From positions 1 through 24,175 of IMG/VR virus record IMGVR_UViG_3300009788_000294: a stretch of 24,175 nt of DNA; one strand, written 5' to 3'. This DNA is from a virus. The translations under genes and the position numbers were made by a program. Below, piece by piece: positions 7,899 to 21,282 of this stretch. Position 1 is the stretch's first letter. Every line of letters begins with the position of its first letter. The notes under the pieces are model-generated. The model worked only from the letters and a program-made list of their open reading frames with translations. It made no database searches and was not told where the DNA came from.

Positions 7899-7901
7899 CT
7901 C

Positions 7902-7930
7902 TTGACAGTGGGATAAACATATGATATCAT
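7902..7930 (+). promoter_or_regulatory. Strong sigma70-like promoter after the tail operon
   Basis: TTGACA (7902-7907) is a perfect -35 box, followed after 17 bp by TATCAT (7925-7930), four of six matches to the -10 consensus. Transcription should start near 7937. The -35 box begins three bases after the stop codon of the upstream gene, the same arrangement as the promoters at 12791 and 23536. Confidence 0.65.
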
Positions 7931-7936
7931 ATATTT

Positions 7937-8042
7937 ATAGTTACTTAATTTACTTAGTTTACTTAAGAGTGTATTCCCTCCAATACTCTCTATCTTAGTC
8001 TCGAAAAAGAGCCGATAATTTAAATTATCGGCTCTTTTTTTT
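7937..8042 (+). ncRNA. Candidate phage small RNA with CCCTCC loop
   Basis: A strong promoter (7902-7930) is followed about 70 bp later by a perfect terminator (8004-8042), with no credible open reading frame between them. The predicted transcript is about 105 nt. It contains three copies of a 9-base unit (TTACTTAAT, TTACTTAGT, TTACTTAAG at 7941-7967). A stem-loop follows (7966-7975 with 7982-7991, one T-T mismatch) whose 6-base loop is CCCTCC (7976-7981). A C-rich loop can pair with GGAGG ribosome binding sites, as in C-rich-loop regulatory RNAs of Gram-positive bacteria. Candidate targets in this window carry GGAGG at 12922-12926 and 22165-22169. Transcription and targets are inference. Confidence 0.45.
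8004..8042 (+). terminator. Rho-independent terminator, perfect palindrome
   Basis: Bases 8009-8021 and 8022-8034 are exact reverse complements (13 bp; the innermost A-T pairs form the loop in RNA), flanked by AAAAA and a run of eight T. The symmetry makes it work on both strands, although no gene faces it from the other side. Confidence 0.85.
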
Positions 8043-8068
8043 ATCCTCAATTGTTTATCAAATAATAC

Positions 8069-8097
8069 TTGATTAAAATATCCTGCAATGTTAATAT
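8069..8097 (+). promoter_or_regulatory. Weak candidate promoter upstream of pyrG
   Basis: TTGATT (8069-8074), a 17-bp spacer and TAATAT (8092-8097) resemble a sigma70 promoter. Transcripts would start near 8104 and meet the terminator-like hairpin at 8156-8198 before the CTP synthase gene. No better promoter is visible between that hairpin and the gene. Confidence 0.3.
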
Positions 8098-8155
8098 TGT
8101 AATAGTGATCATTGAGCTATTCACTCCATGAATAAACTCATATTCTTCACCTTAT

Positions 8156-8198
8156 AATAAAATTAGCCAACCCTTTAAAAGGTTGGCTAATTTTATTT
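8156..8198 (+). terminator. Terminator or attenuator hairpin before pyrG
   Basis: Bases 8156-8172 pair with 8181-8197 in a 17-bp stem with an 8-base loop (CTTTAAAA), and the 3' side ends in TTTTATTT. It lies 41 bp before the CTP synthase start with no clear promoter in between, so pyrG is reached either by readthrough or by controlled antitermination. It could also end any transcript that passes the first terminator. Confidence 0.7.
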
Positions 8199-8239
8199 CA
8201 TCTAAACCGATATATGATTATTAAAAATAAGGGGTAGGA

Positions 8240-9844
8240 ATGACTAAATACATTTTCATTACAGGTGGTGTTGTCTCATCACTAGGGAAAGGCATTGTAG
8301 CAGCCTCGATTGGTAATTTACTTGAATACAGAGGGTTTAACGTTGATTTCTTGAAATTTGATCCCTATATTAATTACGATCCAGGTACTATGAATCCATA
8401 TCAACATGGTGAGGTATTCGTTACTATAGACGGAGCAGAAACAGATCTTGACCTTGGACATTACGAACGTTTTACCTCTAAAATCACAACTAAATATAAT
8501 AATTATACGGCTGGTAAAATTTACTCAAATGTAATACGAAAAGAACGAAATGGTGAATATGAGGGGGCTACAGTTCAAATTATCCCTCACATTACTAACG
8601 AAATAAAATCACATATTGAGCAATTTAAAGATAAAACAGATGTTGTTATTGTGGAAATTGGGGGAACGGTTGGTGATATTGAATCTTTACCGTTTTTAGA
8701 GGCAATTAGACAATTTAAGAGAGATGTTGGTCGTAAAAATGTAATATTTATACATTTAGCTCTAATACCTTTCTTAAATACTGCTGATGAGTTTAAGACC
8801 AAACCGATACAGCATAGCGTTATTAAACTTAGAGAGCTTGGAATACAACCTGATATTTTAATTTGCAGGTCAAATGTTGAATTACCTGATAAAATTAAGA
8901 AAAAAATTGAATTATTTTGTGATGTTGATCTTGAATTTATAATAAGTAATTATGATATCGAGTCGATATATGAAGTACCTATACAGTTGCAGAATAAAAA
9001 ACTGGATACAATCATTATAAAAAAACTCGGCCTTAAATTGAAAAAACTTGAAAACCAGGAATGGGTTGATTTGATTGAAAAACAAAAAAAAATCAATAAT
9101 AGCTCCACATATGTAACTATTGGAATTATAGGTAAATATCTTTGTAAGGATGCGTATATGAGTTTGAATGAGGCTATAGTTCATGCTGGAATTGAATTAA
9201 ATGTAAACATTAAACTTGATTACATAGATTCATCAGAAAATACCGACAAAACAATAAATATTTGTAAAACACTTGATGCTATTATTGTACCTGGCGGATT
9301 TGGAAAAAGAGGGATAGAGGCCAAGTTAAAAGCTATTAAAATTGCTAGACTAAACAAGATACCTTTCCTTGGTATTTGTCTTGGTATGCAATTAGCTATT
9401 ATCGAATTTTGCAGGAATAAAATATACTTACCCAGTGTTGATAGTGAAGAATTTAATCAGTCATGTGAAAATACTGTCATTGAAATAATTGAAAAAGACA
9501 TGGAACGCCCTGAACTTGGGGGAACATTAAGAGTGGGTAGTAGTTATTATTGTAAATTAAAAGATACATATCTAGCCAAGAGATACTATAAAGAATCCTT
9601 AATAGAAGAAAGGCATCGCCACAGGTTTGAATTTAATATTGATTACAGAATCATATTAGAAGATAACGGAATGATCATTACCGGTGAAAGTTTAAATTCA
9701 AAATCAGTAGATATAGTGGAACTTAAAGATCATCCATTTTTTATGGGTGTTCAATTTCATCCTGAATTTAACAGTAAATTCACAAAACCACATCCTTTAT
9801 TTATCGGACTTATTAAAGCAGCCATTACGTATAAGGAGAAATAA
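8240..9844 (+). CDS. pyrG: CTP synthase (glutamine hydrolysing)
   Basis: This 534-residue enzyme makes CTP from UTP, ATP and glutamine in the cytoplasm. It is full length (family about 530-550). The amidoligase domain (about 1-265) has the P-loop GGVVSSLGKGI (Lys17), the KFDPYIN strand and GAETDLDLGHYERF. The glutaminase domain (about 290-530) has PGGFG, the nucleophile in GICLGMQ (Cys380) and FHPE (His507, Glu509), so both active sites look intact. The segment FVTIDGAETD has Ile where cellular enzymes usually have Asp or Glu, a point to check in the nucleotide site. The RBS GGGGTAGG is close to the ATG. Gene order and base composition match the phage neighbours, so this is phage-borne rather than host flank. 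It probably enlarges the CTP/dCTP pool for replication, ahead of helicase, SSB and primase genes. Confidence 0.97.
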   Translation: MTKYIFITGGVVSSLGKGIVAASIGNLLEYRGFNVDFLKFDPYINYDPGTMNPYQHGEVFVTIDGAETDLDLGHYERFTSKITTKYNNYTAGKIYSNVIRKERNGEYEGATVQIIPHITNEIKSHIEQFKDKTDVVIVEIGGTVGDIESLPFLEAIRQFKRDVGRKNVIFIHLALIPFLNTADEFKTKPIQHSVIKLRELGIQPDILICRSNVELPDKIKKKIELFCDVDLEFIISNYDIESIYEVPIQLQNKKLDTIIIKKLGLKLKKLENQEWVDLIEKQKKINNSSTYVTIGIIGKYLCKDAYMSLNEAIVHAGIELNVNIKLDYIDSSENTDKTINICKTLDAIIVPGGFGKRGIEAKLKAIKIARLNKIPFLGICLGMQLAIIEFCRNKIYLPSVDSEEFNQSCENTVIEIIEKDMERPELGGTLRVGSSYYCKLKDTYLAKRYYKESLIEERHRHRFEFNIDYRIILEDNGMIITGESLNSKSVDIVELKDHPFFMGVQFHPEFNSKFTKPHPLFIGLIKAAITYKEK

Positions 9845-15163: not shown

Positions 15164-18118
15164 ATGTCTAAATCATGGGATGATTTAAAAAATGAAATAA
15201 AACGAATGATAAAATGGCAAGATTTTTATAGAGATGTCAAGAATATAAAAACCTCTACGGCGGATTGGATGAAAGGCAATTGCCCTTTACATAACGATAC
15301 GACAGCATCATTCACTTTTCATTCAAAACATTTAGGATGGATGTGCCACGCAGGATGTGGTCAGGGTGATATTTTTGATTTTTTAGAAAAAAAAGATGGA
15401 TTAGATTTTAAAGCAGCTATTAATATGCTCGCTGACACATATCATTTAGAAAAACCCAATAATAACCCTACCCCAGAAATACCCGAACTACTTATCGAAA
15501 AATACACAGAAGCCTTATTAAGAACAAACCATATCAAGACCATATTAACAGAACAACGAGGACTTTCAATTGACACTATTAAAGCATTTGGATTAGGATG
15601 GAGTTCTAAAAGAAAAAGAATTACTATACCTATAAGAGACGACAAAGGTAAGTTAGTAAACATAAGATACTATTTACCGAATGCAGGTAAAAAAGACATT
15701 AAAATTCAAAGTCATACTATTGAGGTAAATGATAAAAAAATAGGTTACGGCAATATGCGTCTATATGGTGTTGATAAATTAATTATTTACAAAGGTAGTC
15801 AAGTTATTATTTGTGAAGGTGAACTGGATCGTATACTTTTAGAACAATATGGTTTTATGGCTGTAACTGGTACGGCAGGTTGTAATGGTTTTAATCGGGA
15901 ATGGACTCAATACTTTAAAAATAAAGATGTTATTCTTTTATTTGATTGTGATCAAGCAGGAATGAGGGCTATTAATCAAACGATAATCCCTAAATTTAAA
16001 AATACTGAAATTAAATCAATTAGAAATGTAAAATTACCATTAAACGGTACTAAGGATGAAAAAGATATCACTGACTATTTCATTAAAGCACAATTCGGTA
16101 AGGAACATTTAATTAATTTAATTAATACTACAAAAACACATAATTATATAAAGAAAATAAAACAAGAAGAAATAATAAAACTGGATTCATTCATTGAAAT
16201 AGAACAAGATATATATAAAAATAAAAAAGTAGAATGCGATATTGTAATTGACGGAGAAACTGAAGAATCATTCCACGCTGTAACTGAATTTAAAGTAATT
16301 TATTGCAAATTGCTTGACCAAGACAAATGCTCCGATTGTATGGAAAACATACAAATACCTTTAGGTAGTGAGGAATTTATATATAGTTGCATGTCTGATG
16401 ATTCCAAAGTTCTAGGCAGGCTTAGGGATTATTGTTGTAGATATGGGCAAAAGCCTACTATTGAGAAATTAAAATCCCGGACAATTAAAGAATTCTTTTG
16501 TCATCAAGTTATAAATAGAATAACCGAACGTTCTGACGACGACACTTCACAAACAACTAATGGTAAGGTAGAAGAATTTCTGGAAAAGAAAGTATATTAT
16601 ATTTCACATGAACGACCCAAGGTTGGTATCTATAAAGCTATAGGGTGGGTTAAAACTCATCCGAAAACACAAGCCATAACTTTCCTAATAGAAACTCTAA
16701 CGCCACAGGAGGACGATTATCAGGCGTTTAGAGTTGATGATAATATTGAATTGTTGAATGAAATTAAAAAATATCCTGGCAGTAAAATGGTTAAGGATTT
16801 AACTAACCATGTTACTGGTATTTACGAGAGAGATGAATTGATTTATGCCTGCTTATTAACGTATTTTTCACCGTTATGGTTTATTTTTAACAGTGAAAAA
16901 ACTAGAGGATGGATCAATACAGCCATTATAGGAGACGTTGGAACCGGTAAAACTCAAACCTTTACCCGGATAGCTGATTTCATTAATGTTGGTGATGTTA
17001 TTAGTGGTCTTACAAGTAGTAGAACTGGCGCTCTTTATGCTATAACTAACAGTCCAACTAAAGGTTGGAAGATAACTATCGGAAGATATCCAGCTAATGA
17101 TGGGAAATTATTACTTATCGATGAGGCGCAACATTTCGATCCCGAAGAGATGAAGCAAATAGGTAAGGCAATGGATGAAGGGTGTCTCCACGTTAGTCGA
17201 GTTGTTGATCAGGTTTACGATACACGTACCAGATTATTATTAATATGTAATCCTGTTAAGCAACGAAATATGGACGGTTACGCTTTTGGATGCACTGTTT
17301 TGCCTGAATTATTTAATTCAGCATTCATCAGGCGATTAGATTTGGCTATTATTGTTAATTCTAATGATATTGAGAGTGATAAATATATTAATCAATTAAA
17401 GCCTAACAAGAAAGAACAAAAGATAACAGCTGAAATGTTAAGAGCTTTGGTTTATTGGGCATGGAATTTAAAAATAAAACAAATTAACTTTACAGACCAA
17501 GCAACTAATTTATGTTTAACTAAGGCAGAGGAACTTAGTGAAATTTATTCATATGCTAGTGATGTACCTTTGGTATTAAAGGCTGATTATCGAAAAAACA
17601 TTGCAAGACTTGCTGTAGGGTTTGCAGTAATGAATATTAATACTCAGGACTTTAATGAATTAATAATAACAGAAGAACATATTATTATGGCTGTAGAGTT
17701 CGTTAAAATTATCTATTCTAATAGTAATTGCCAGTTAGATGAATATAGTGATATTCAAAAAATGTCTGAACAACTTAAGGATTATAATAATATAGAGTCT
17801 ATTTTTATAAACAAAAAATCAAAAGATAATGACTCTTTGTTTTTTTCTGTAATAATATCTCTATTAAAAACACAGGATTGTATAAAGCGTAATGTATTAC
17901 AAGAACAAGTAGATTGTAGTGATTGGGATTTAAGAGGTGTTTTGAGTGTACTTAAAAAATTCAATTTAATTAATAGTTCCAGGAATGGCTTGATTCGGAC
18001 CAGTAAGTTTACTAAATTTATTAAAATATTTAAAATTGAAAATTCCGAGTTTTGGAAGAAAGAATTAGAAAAATACTACAATAATAATGTTGTTATTGAA
18101 GAGAACATGCCTTTTTAG
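15164..18118 (+). CDS. Primase-helicase: DnaG-type primase fused to MCM-like AAA+ helicase
   Basis: This 984-residue replication protein has, in order: a CHC2-type zinc domain (CPLH 40-43, Cys61, Cys65, then GQGDIFDF); a TOPRIM primase core (CEGELD with Glu218/Glu220/Asp222, VTGTAG, DCDQAG with Asp261/Asp263); a middle domain with four cysteines (381, 389, 392, 409); and an AAA+ ATPase with Walker A GDVGTGKT (590-597), Walker B LLLIDEA (649-655), sensor-1 Asn in ICNPV (696), and FIRRLDLAII (721-730) in the place of the MCM 'SRFDL' motif. MDEGCLHVSRVVD corresponds to the MCM 'aMEq..vsvaKag' loop. A helical/winged-helix-like end follows. It probably primes and unwinds at the phage fork. The last residues, EENMPF, resemble an SSB tip. 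The stop is TAG. Confidence 0.9.
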   Translation: MSKSWDDLKNEIKRMIKWQDFYRDVKNIKTSTADWMKGNCPLHNDTTASFTFHSKHLGWMCHAGCGQGDIFDFLEKKDGLDFKAAINMLADTYHLEKPNNNPTPEIPELLIEKYTEALLRTNHIKTILTEQRGLSIDTIKAFGLGWSSKRKRITIPIRDDKGKLVNIRYYLPNAGKKDIKIQSHTIEVNDKKIGYGNMRLYGVDKLIIYKGSQVIICEGELDRILLEQYGFMAVTGTAGCNGFNREWTQYFKNKDVILLFDCDQAGMRAINQTIIPKFKNTEIKSIRNVKLPLNGTKDEKDITDYFIKAQFGKEHLINLINTTKTHNYIKKIKQEEIIKLDSFIEIEQDIYKNKKVECDIVIDGETEESFHAVTEFKVIYCKLLDQDKCSDCMENIQIPLGSEEFIYSCMSDDSKVLGRLRDYCCRYGQKPTIEKLKSRTIKEFFCHQVINRITERSDDDTSQTTNGKVEEFLEKKVYYISHERPKVGIYKAIGWVKTHPKTQAITFLIETLTPQEDDYQAFRVDDNIELLNEIKKYPGSKMVKDLTNHVTGIYERDELIYACLLTYFSPLWFIFNSEKTRGWINTAIIGDVGTGKTQTFTRIADFINVGDVISGLTSSRTGALYAITNSPTKGWKITIGRYPANDGKLLLIDEAQHFDPEEMKQIGKAMDEGCLHVSRVVDQVYDTRTRLLLICNPVKQRNMDGYAFGCTVLPELFNSAFIRRLDLAIIVNSNDIESDKYINQLKPNKKEQKITAEMLRALVYWAWNLKIKQINFTDQATNLCLTKAEELSEIYSYASDVPLVLKADYRKNIARLAVGFAVMNINTQDFNELIITEEHIIMAVEFVKIIYSNSNCQLDEYSDIQKMSEQLKDYNNIESIFINKKSKDNDSLFFSVIISLLKTQDCIKRNVLQEQVDCSDWDLRGVLSVLKKFNLINSSRNGLIRTSKFTKFIKIFKIENSEFWKKELEKYYNNNVVIEENMPF

Positions 18119-18124
18119 TACTTT

Positions 18125-18142
18125 AAAAACATCCTAGAGAGT
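18125..18142 (+). repeat. 18-bp direct repeat, left copy
   Basis: AAAAACATCCTAGAGAGT matches the right copy at 18580-18597 except for C versus G at the sixth base. The two copies flank the inverted repeat at 18221-18552. The offset is 455 bp. Confidence 0.75.
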
Positions 18143-18220
18143 TTGTAATTGATTAATAATAATACATATTTTACTTTAATGAAAATAAATATATCATCAT
18201 TTTTTACGTTATTAAATTTC

Positions 18221-18552
18221 CAACTAATTGATTTTAAAGGAAACAGTATTTTAATTTTCTGTACTTACTATACACGAGTAGTGTAAGTTGTTGATTTAAT
18301 TACATATCTATATATCCCCTCACGGATAAATGAAAAAGTGCCCTGCCCCTATAATTTAACGGAGTTGCTACTATTTAACATAAACGTCGCAAGTATGACT
18401 TTTTTTAGGGGCACCCGCTTTGAGCGTTTATCTGTGAGGATTTAGGGTTTTAGTTTATGGTTTTCTTTTATTATCAACAAGTTAAGTCCCTCATTTAACG
18501 CCACAAGAACAAATATACTAAAACATATGTTTCTTTTAAAATCAATTAGTTG
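18221..18552 (+). ncRNA. Candidate large structured RNA (or origin) closed by a 25-bp helix
   Basis: Bases 18221-18245 pair with 18528-18552 over 25 positions, all Watson-Crick except one G-U (18239 with 18534). Inside lie a hairpin at about 18263-18288; a 13-bp stem 18318-18330 with 18427-18439 (one G-U); within that a 7-bp stem 18344-18350 with 18407-18413 and a 4-bp hairpin 18416-18426; and a 5-bp hairpin 18481-18485 with 18495-18499. A 7-bp hairpin (18553-18572) abuts the closing helix. Both long stems deviate only by wobble pairs, which favours RNA. No terminator follows, so it may be cut from the primase transcript. Large ornate phage RNAs (GOLLD, ROOL) are the known comparison, but I cannot test a match. 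A replication origin is the alternative. Confidence 0.5.
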
Positions 18553-18572
18553 TAGTGCTTTATGTAGCACTA
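18553..18572 (+). other. 7-bp hairpin adjoining the large structure
   Basis: TAGTGCT (18553-18559) and AGCACTA (18566-18572) form a perfect stem with loop TTATGT. It starts at the base next to the 25-bp helix and could stack on it. No T run follows. Confidence 0.6.
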
Positions 18573-18579
18573 AGGGAAC

Positions 18580-18597
18580 AAAAAGATCCTAGAGAGT
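18580..18597 (+). repeat. 18-bp direct repeat, right copy
   Basis: AAAAAGATCCTAGAGAGT repeats the left copy at 18125-18142 with one mismatch. It lies 27 bp after the large inverted repeat. Confidence 0.75.
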
Positions 18598-18635
18598 AAA
18601 GTAAGTTATTGAAAATAAAGTAAATAAGTAATTAT

Positions 18636-18676
18636 CAATAGAAAGTTATGTAAGTTTCTATTGTACACATTATAAT
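18636..18676 (+). promoter_or_regulatory. Dyad and -10 box before the gene at 18692
   Basis: CAATAGAAA (18636-18644) and TTTCTATTG (18655-18663) form a perfect 9-bp dyad with a 10-base centre. A TATAAT box follows at 18671-18676. The dyad covers the place of the -35 box, for which no good match is seen, as expected for an operator at a regulated promoter. An RNA hairpin is the alternative. Confidence 0.45.
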
Positions 18677-18691
18677 GCAAGGTATACACGG

Positions 18692-19528
18692 ATGAACTTA
18701 AATAATATTTGTAACGATCCTATTATAGTTAATAGTAAACACATAAGCAAGTTAATGAAGGAAGCTCAAGATGAAATTAATATATATTACAAAATAGGTG
18801 ATATGGTAAGATTAGAGAAATTTAAGCAATGGCCTGGAGCAGAGAAAAAACTTGCCGATAAAATGGAGAAAGCAATTAATGATAATAATAATTACATTAA
18901 TGCTATTAATGAGTGGAAGGAATTTTGGCTTAAAAGTACTCAAGCTATGAGAAAAGAAGATTTGATACAAAAAAAAACAATAGATATTACAATAAGGGAC
19001 TTACTTGAGTCCAATCAGTGCTTACAAATATTATGGAAAGGTCACACTGTTAATATTGCTCCTTCGGTTGAGATGAGAAAAAAAATGACCAAGACAGGTG
19101 AATCATGGTTTACTATAGAAGAGGTTTTGATCTTTAAAAATAAAACAATAAATGAAGATCAGCTTGAAAAACTCATAACAATAAAAGAACAATTTAACGG
19201 ATGTATTAAAGAAAATGAAAATATCGAAAAAATAAAAGTCAAAGCTAAAGAGAGATTGCTATATAAACACAATATAGACTCTACAGTAGAGGAAAAAGTA
19301 AATAACATAAAATCACAAGCAATTGAATTAGGATGGCCTGAGGAGCAATTAACGTCTATTCAGGGATATTTCAAATATCCTCTAAGTGAAGAATATGGGT
19401 TAATTTGTCATATAGGAAAAAATGATACTATAGGGACGGTTAATAAAGACTATATTGAGATTATAGGGCCGGCACCCAGAAATATAGTTCATAAATTTTT
19501 AAGGAGAACAAGGAAAAATAATTGTTAG
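18692..19528 (+). CDS. Hypothetical protein, helical, 278 residues
   Basis: I do not recognise this protein. It is Lys/Glu/Asn-rich and mostly helical; about residues 150-215 could be coiled coil. A short C-terminal domain (about 225-270) contains GLICHIGKNDTIGTVNKDYIEIIGPAP, a probable beta hairpin set. No nuclease, methylase or ATPase motif is visible. The RBS AAGG (18679-18682) is 9 bases from ATG, with a -10 box just upstream, so it heads a new operon. The stop is TAG. A methyltransferase fragment begins in another frame over its last codons, which carry AAGGAG (19501-19506) suited to start translation of that fragment. Confidence 0.7.
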   Translation: MNLNNICNDPIIVNSKHISKLMKEAQDEINIYYKIGDMVRLEKFKQWPGAEKKLADKMEKAINDNNNYINAINEWKEFWLKSTQAMRKEDLIQKKTIDITIRDLLESNQCLQILWKGHTVNIAPSVEMRKKMTKTGESWFTIEEVLIFKNKTINEDQLEKLITIKEQFNGCIKENENIEKIKVKAKERLLYKHNIDSTVEEKVNNIKSQAIELGWPEEQLTSIQGYFKYPLSEEYGLICHIGKNDTIGTVNKDYIEIIGPAPRNIVHKFLRRTRKNNC

Positions 19529-19718
19529 AAAATTAACACCAATAGAATGTGAACGTTTACAAACATGGCCTGATGGGTTTACCGAAGGAGTTAGTAATAC
19601 TCAAAGATATAAAATGATTGGTAATGGTTTTACTAGTGATGTTTTTATTGAATTTTTAAATAAAATGAAAGAAGATATGAAAAATGGTAATTCTTTACGT
19701 AATACAGAGAATAAGTAA
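19521..19718 (+). pseudogene. C-terminal fragment of a cytosine-C5 DNA methyltransferase
   Basis: This frame is open from 19503 to TAA at 19716-19718. It encodes RKLTPIECERLQ (C5-methyltransferase motif IX) followed by TWPDGF and QRYKMIGNGF (motif X), then helical residues to the end, about 65 residues in all. These are exactly the last conserved blocks of Dcm-type enzymes. Motif I (SAM binding), the catalytic PCQ loop and the target recognition domain are absent here and upstream. There is no ATG; the possible start is ATT at 19521, with AAGGA 6 bases and AAGGAG 14 bases upstream. It is either a relic of a deleted gene or the small subunit of a split enzyme (as in M.AquI), whose large part would lie outside the window. 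Confidence 0.7.
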
Positions 19719-19923
19719 AAAAGGTAAATTATTGAGCTATAAAAGAAAGTATTTGAAAAATTGGGAATCAATTGATCAGTATTATTTTTCAAATTATATT
19801 AATAAAAAGACTCTTTGGGTACATTCTCAATATCAAAGAATAAGTATGAATTGGGATTGTAAATTACCTAATATTAGAAGAAAAATAAATTGTAAAATAA
19901 AAAAATTAATAAAGAGGAAATAA
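19684..19923 (+). CDS. Small basic hypothetical protein
   Basis: The frame gives 79 residues from ATG at 19684, but this start overlaps the methyltransferase fragment by 35 bases and has little RBS. A TTG at 19732 with AAAAAAGG 7 bases upstream would give 64 residues and is a good alternative. The protein is very basic (C-terminus KINCKIKKLIKRK) with several Tyr and Trp, suggesting nucleic-acid contact. I do not recognise a family. It ends 3 bases before the VRR-NUC gene. Confidence 0.55.
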   Translation: MVILYVIQRISKKGKLLSYKRKYLKNWESIDQYYFSNYINKKTLWVHSQYQRISMNWDCKLPNIRRKINCKIKKLIKRK

Positions 19924-20661: not shown

Positions 20662-21282
20662 ATGAAGAAATACGAATTAACTAAAAATATTAAAACAGTA
20701 GGTGATTTAACTCTATATCAAATTAAAGCTTCTAGAAGTTTCAAAAACGTTAAAAAAGGAGACTTGGGCGGTTGGATTGAAAAAGAATACAATTTATCGC
20801 ACAAAGGCAATTGTTGGGTTTCCGGTGATGCTGAGGTTTGCGGTGATGCTAAGGTTTGCGGTAATGCTTGGGTTTTCGGTGATGCTTGGGTTTCCGGTAA
20901 TGCTAAGGTTTACGGTGATGCTAAGGTTTCCGGTGATGCTGAGGTTTTCGGTGATGCTGAGGTTTGCGGTAATGCTTGGGTTTTCGGTGATGCTGAGGTT
21001 TGCGGTAATGCTTGGGTTTCCGGTGATGCTTGGGTTTACGGTGATGCTAAGGTTTACGGTGATGCTAAGGTTTACGGTAATGCTAAGGTTTTCGATGATG
21101 CTGAGGTTTCCGGTGATGCTAAGGTTTCCGGTGATGCTTGGGTTTCCGGTAATGCTAAGGTTTACGGTGATGCTAAGGTTTCCGGTAATGCTTGGGTTTT
21201 CGGTGATGCTAAGGTTTACGGTGATGCTAAGGTTTGCGGTGATGCTAAGGTTTACGGTGATGCTGAGGTTTCCGGTGATTAA
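20662..21282 (+). CDS. Hexapeptide-repeat (left-handed beta-helix) protein
   Basis: This 206-residue protein has a short globular N-terminus (about 1-49) with DLGGWIEKEYNLSHKGNCWV, typical of phage and bacterial proteins that begin 'l.+I+A...F.dVk.GdlGG+ie.e.NLs..G.cWV'. Residues 50-205 are 26 uninterrupted hexapeptides of the form [DN]A[EKW]V[SCFY]G (one ends in D). Such repeats fold as a left-handed parallel beta-helix, six residues per face. There is no catalytic His of the acyltransferase type and no C-terminal cap; the protein stops one residue into the next repeat. The role is unknown; some relatives are thought to be structural. RBS AAAGGGAA. It is driven by promoter copy 2. Confidence 0.85.
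   Translation: MKKYELTKNIKTVGDLTLYQIKASRSFKNVKKGDLGGWIEKEYNLSHKGNCWVSGDAEVCGDAKVCGNAWVFGDAWVSGNAKVYGDAKVSGDAEVFGDAEVCGNAWVFGDAEVCGNAWVSGDAWVYGDAKVYGDAKVYGNAKVFDDAEVSGDAKVSGDAWVSGNAKVYGDAKVSGNAWVFGDAKVYGDAKVCGDAKVYGDAEVSGD
20809..21276 (+). repeat. 26 tandem 18-bp coding repeats
   Basis: The unit is RAT-GCT-(GAG/AAG/TGG)-GTT-TNC-GGT. Only the first codon, the third codon and the middle base of the fifth codon vary among most units; the middle base of TNC takes all four bases. Because 18 is a multiple of three, changes in unit number keep the frame. Confidence 0.9.

Follow-up and report, generated by a model that had tools for sequence, protein, structure and literature searches.

The gap between genes at positions 18119–18691 of the virus record IMGVR_UViG_3300009788_000294 is probably a phage replication origin, possibly acting in part as a single strand folded on itself; we put the probability of this reading at about 0.6. 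The window, meaning the whole stretch of DNA that was analysed, is 24,175 bases long with a G+C content of ~30%, and all of its larger genes are carried on the + strand. An earlier note on this DNA had left two readings for the element at 18125–18597: a structured origin, or a large RNA resembling GOLLD or ROOL. The RNA reading is left with neither an Rfam match nor a homologue. The structured origin is the better supported of the two, because the gene adjoining the gap encodes a primase-helicase of the initiator type that carries a winged helix at its C-terminus, because relatives have long inverted repeats built of repeats, unrelated in sequence, beside the same gene, and because the long helix has arms whose repeat also has unpaired copies.

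The presence of a folded structure in the gap beyond chance was confirmed. When the whole 573-nt gap was folded as RNA, its z scores against shuffles were -6.0 (+ strand) and -4.8 (- strand); for the core at 18205–18575 the values were -8.8 and -5.6. Folded as single-stranded DNA, the scores were -7.2 (+) and -5.8 (-), and the long inverted repeat reached z 10.9 over shuffles. A scan of the + strand in 350-nt folds found just one other equally extreme place, a bidirectional terminator pair at ~8.0–8.2 kb. There, two bidirectional intrinsic terminators (7900–8239; a perfect 18-bp and a near-perfect 21-bp inverted repeat) stand between the tail genes and the CTP synthase operon, whose full-length phage CTP synthase (pyrG, 8240–9844) is rare in annotated phages, with 16 matching records and none above 60% identity. 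A terminator reading of the hairpins in the gap was rejected, since no T run follows them.

The fold is closed by a 25-bp helix between a left arm at 18221–18245 (+) and a right arm at 18528–18552 (-), which contains one G-U pair and encloses 282 nt, just as the earlier note had described it, and has a pair probability of 0.99. The nested stems and hairpins that were described inside the helix also lie where they had been placed. On its 5' side a small hairpin occupies 18263–18288 (+; pair probability 0.92–0.94), and a central rod-like hairpin spans 18318–18439 (+; 0.96–0.99), with stems of 15 bp (18318–18332/18425–18439), 6 bp (18335–18340/18416–18421) and 8 bp (18344–18351/18406–18413). The 13-bp stem with one G-U that had been reported is present, but belongs to the 15-bp stem, which has two. 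Outside, a 7-bp hairpin at 18553–18572 (+; 18553–18559/18566–18572, pair probability 0.98) abuts the 25-bp helix, and corresponds to the stacked hairpin of the earlier description.

The mismatches of these stems bear on which molecule is folded. All three in the central hairpin are G-T on the + strand, and over the main helices of the window 4/4 mismatches are G-U on the + strand with no A-C; the single mismatch in the corresponding stem of a Candidatus Kuenenia prophage (L095) is likewise G-U. The sample is small, and some helices were found by folding with G-U allowed, which favours G-U. Even so, the pattern suggests a role for base pairing within the + strand itself. From the wobble-only breaks the earlier note had argued for selection at the RNA level; the breaks are indeed wobble-only, but they would suit equally well an origin at which one DNA strand folds, the proposal made for pRN1 and BIP-1. 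The gap could instead encode a large structured phage RNA, either transcribed by itself or processed from the early mRNA, closed by the 25-bp helix and functional as folded RNA. We consider this rather unlikely. The + strand does fold better than the - strand for its composition, the wobble-only mismatches suit an RNA, and the central hairpin, rod-like with internal loops, is more RNA-like than a protein site; on the other side, the bias of the fold search toward G-U weakens the second of these points, and around the structure no clear promoter or terminator was found.

The earlier note overlooked that further copies of the helix arms are present in the gap. The arms belong to a 22-bp family with four copies, R1–R4, starting at 18222 (+), 18462 (-), 18530 (-) and 18603 (+). 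R1 (18222–18243) and R3 (18530–18551) are the helix itself, while R2 (18462–18483) lies outside the long helix and matches the arm at 18/22; R4 (18603–18624) is the weakest, with 16/22 to the arms and 17/22 to R2. That R2 and R4 are imperfect and stand in A+T-rich DNA, and that the other two copies are the helix itself, counts against an origin. None of 400 shuffles reached the third copy and one of 400 the fourth; with the arms taken as given, the chance of a third copy of this quality is P = 0.007. The fold needs neither R2 nor R4, which speaks against a large RNA and points to a protein-binding repeat.

Also overlooked was an 18-bp direct repeat on the + strand, whose copies AAAAACATCCTAGAGAGT (18125–18142) and AAAAAGATCCTAGAGAGT (18580–18597) are identical at 17/18 positions and coincide with the ends of the element as first described. 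As the best direct repeat, it reached z 6.1 over shuffles. Between its first copy and R1, and not among the R copies, lies an A+T-rich stretch (18146–18206), ranked by nearest-neighbour energy as the second least stable 60-bp segment in the 24-kb window, and a candidate melting site. Repeats at such positions could also mark a small non-autonomous mobile element, either of 332 bp, bounded by 25-bp terminal inverted repeats that match at 96%, or of 437 bp between the 18-bp direct repeats, whose 17/18 identity would suit flanking repeats. This is very improbable: no target duplication adjoins the 25-bp arms, as a MITE-like element would have it, the segment between the direct repeats has no terminal inverted repeats, and the element is single-copy, with no second one in the record, in phages or in plasmids. 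Moreover, the Kuenenia prophage has a structure built alike, with other sequence, in the same place.

The gap begins at the stop codon of the gene at 15164–18118 (+), a primase-helicase of 984 aa, and the element does follow a replication gene as had been noted. Pfam found a DnaG zinc finger, a Toprim domain and an MCM P-loop domain in the protein. A model of its C-terminal half has a pLDDT of 88 and matches MCM helicase structures at Z ~31; the last 105 residues were modelled as a winged helix (~aa 891–946) and match winged-helix DNA-binding domains with Z up to 10. Since the C-terminus is complete in comparison with relatives, the gap lies outside the gene. By analogy with P4 alpha and pRN1 ORF904, such a protein is expected to bind the origin, open it and prime (PMC4234260), and it is the likely initiator here.

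All open reading frames in the gap are ≤45 aa, in agreement with the claim that the element has none, and no tRNA genes lie near. GC skew shows no turn at the gap, which counts against an origin. A retron or DGR was rejected, as reverse transcriptase is absent from the annotated families of the window. The gene following the gap (18692–19528) had no family match, and directly 3' of this orphan gene, 19529–19719 resembles a C-terminal piece of a C5 DNA methyltransferase (KLTPIECERLQTWPDGF); it is probably a remnant methyltransferase, with the catalytic part absent. Further on, ~26 copies of an 18-bp repeat at 20817–21279 encode a VSGDAKVYGDA-type repeat protein.

Searches for homologues of the gap were negative. 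The Rfam check suggested in the earlier note gave no match at the gathering score for the window and no relevant match at E ≤ 10 for 18000–18800; it showed no intron, in favour of the note's account, and no match to GOLLD or ROOL, against its comparison with these RNAs. A group I or II intron was rejected on this ground, and also because the primase gene reaches its natural end upstream of the gap. Similarity to the gap DNA in phages and plasmids was limited to A+T-rich chance matches, and neither these collections nor viral contigs nor the loci of relatives yielded a DNA relative. The RNA reading therefore has no covariation in its favour. A scan of viral contigs for the pattern of the G+C-rich stem returned one match, in G+C-rich coding DNA, which was discarded as chance.

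The best clue to the likely role of the gap is given by the closest relatives of the primase-helicase. These are found in the Kuenenia prophage L095 (46% protein identity), the bacterium L096 (44%), the Planctomycetota genome L105 (45%) and the viral contig L014 (33%). Searches of Planctomycetota and of the phylum of L096 yielded L105, a primase fragment truncated by the contig, and others more distant at ~30%, and L014 was the only close relative found in the viral contigs. The gene is followed by a gap of 271 nt in L095, 600 nt in L096, ~120–170 nt in L105 and 371 nt in L014; most of the distant relatives have no gap 3' of it, which counts against an origin.

Directly after the gene, L095 has a 26-bp inverted repeat (8901–8926/9101–9126) with one wobble, unrelated in sequence to the helix of the window, in which a perfect 14-bp inverted repeat is nested; the fold has a z score of -5.9. 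With a long helix, a 5' hairpin and an inner stem its layout resembles that of the window, and this likeness would suit a large RNA as well. However, all four arms in L095 are copies of the 12-bp GTGTGTATAGTT, in the order + - + -, and a single repeat forming every arm is odd for an RNA and normal for protein sites. The L095 region at 8901–9126 can also be described as an inverted-repeat unit of the 12-bp iteron with a 43-nt spacer, occurring twice at an exact distance of 143 bp with differing spacer sequences. Alignment of the window gap to the L095 gap found no convincing homology: the best local match, 18570–18643 against 9027–9098, was reached by 1/100 shuffles in one of 12 comparisons. 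No viral contig was found with the L095 iteron, and sequence matching the L095 gap in another genome lies at contig ends, looks like chance and was set aside. In L105, a 12-bp repeat occurs three times in alternating orientation, and the inverted repeat has z 4.5. The inverted repeats of L096 and L014 are weak (z 3.4 and 2.7), with no significant fold. This is the main weakness of the case for an origin, and it tells against a large RNA too.

In phages more distantly related through this protein, namely Microbacterium phage Kate, Youna2, BSP7 and the viral contig L046, iteron-built long inverted repeats stand up to 750 bp upstream of the gene, with repeat units CCCACAAT (Kate), CACACAAT (L046) and TGTAAAG (Youna2). 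That these arrays are not downstream counts against the origin reading of the gap. Their mismatches in Kate, L046 and BSP7 include ones other than G-T, as expected of double-stranded sites. The iteron arrays 5' of the gene in Kate (L012, 2622–2731) and L046 (4371–4505) are unannotated and are candidate origins. When the long-range inverted repeats of 40 loci were ranked, five of the top six fell within 750 bp of the gene, a zone holding 17% of what was searched outside the gene (P 7e-4). The window, which prompted this count, is itself counted, and the 750-bp limit and the 38-bit cut-off were both set with the data already in view.

The same loci bear on whether the gap is a regulatory site alone, either a set of operators for a phage repressor or regulator or a site of the partition or packaging type, with no origin function. 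Repeats in both orientations suit any DNA-binding protein, and the gap stands before the orphan gene. Nevertheless, we think this quite improbable, as relatives keep such arrays beside the primase-helicase though the genes otherwise flanking it differ between them, and an operator would not need the central hairpin or the A+T-rich stretch.

Herein, we outline how an origin in the gap might work. The primase-helicase made from the upstream gene would bind the repeats through its C-terminal winged helix, the candidate sites being R1–R4 and perhaps also the 18-bp direct repeat; the inverted order of the R copies gives the long helix. MCM-type rings would then load and open the A+T-rich stretch, the putative site of melting. 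The exposed strand, by the wobble pattern the + strand, could form the 25-bp stem together with the central hairpin, a fold that may guide loading or priming. As a broader and more tentative proposal, which we would not yet expect to hold, a phage lineage around Planctomycetota and neighbouring bacteria may use an origin that acts as a large folded strand and is recognised by a Toprim-MCM-winged-helix initiator, in which the fold is kept while sequence and repeat vary freely. If the origin reading is right, it supplies a concrete origin for phages that join a bacterial-type primase to MCM, the archaeal and eukaryotic helicase family, and widens the rule by which initiators of this sort have the origin next to their own gene. 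It would also be a warning that long inverted repeats of protein-binding sites can mimic giant RNAs in fold predictors.

With GOLLD and ROOL, the gap shares a large multi-branched fold in a phage genome; it differs in having no Rfam match, homologues, covariation or nearby tRNA genes, and in arms that behave like DNA repeats. Origins of replication offer closer parallels. In PICIs, the origin lies immediately 3' of pri-rep, and its A+T-rich region is flanked by two sets of iterons (PMC6092414); in P4 alpha, a Toprim primase and a helicase are joined to a repeat-binding winged helix at the C-terminus (PMC4234260). The window is alike in that the gap lies immediately 3' of the primase-initiator gene, often fused in PICIs, and in that the initiator has primase, AAA+ helicase and C-terminal winged helix. 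It differs in that the helicase is an MCM-type AAA+, the repeats are long, partly degenerate and low in number (of four 22-bp copies, two are imperfect), the least stable stretch falls outside R1–R4, and a large central hairpin is added. In pRN1 and in BIP-1, a Bordetella phage whose origin is proposed, a large stem-loop lies 3' of the gene for primase, helicase and winged helix, its structure kept and its sequence not (PMC4234260). The window likewise has a large stem-loop, 18221–18552, just 3' of its replication gene. However, pRN1 joins an archaeo-eukaryotic primase to an SF3 helicase, whereas the window has DnaG zinc finger, Toprim and MCM; the pRN1 stem-loop measures ~100 bp and has no iterons, while that of the window measures 332 bp and its arms are the repeats. 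Keeping the structure while the sequence changes is seen in L095, whereas L096 and L014 have no significant fold. By analogy with these systems, the window appears to combine candidate iterons and an A+T-rich stretch 3' of the gene, as in PICIs, with a large stem-loop as in pRN1, together with an MCM-type initiator.
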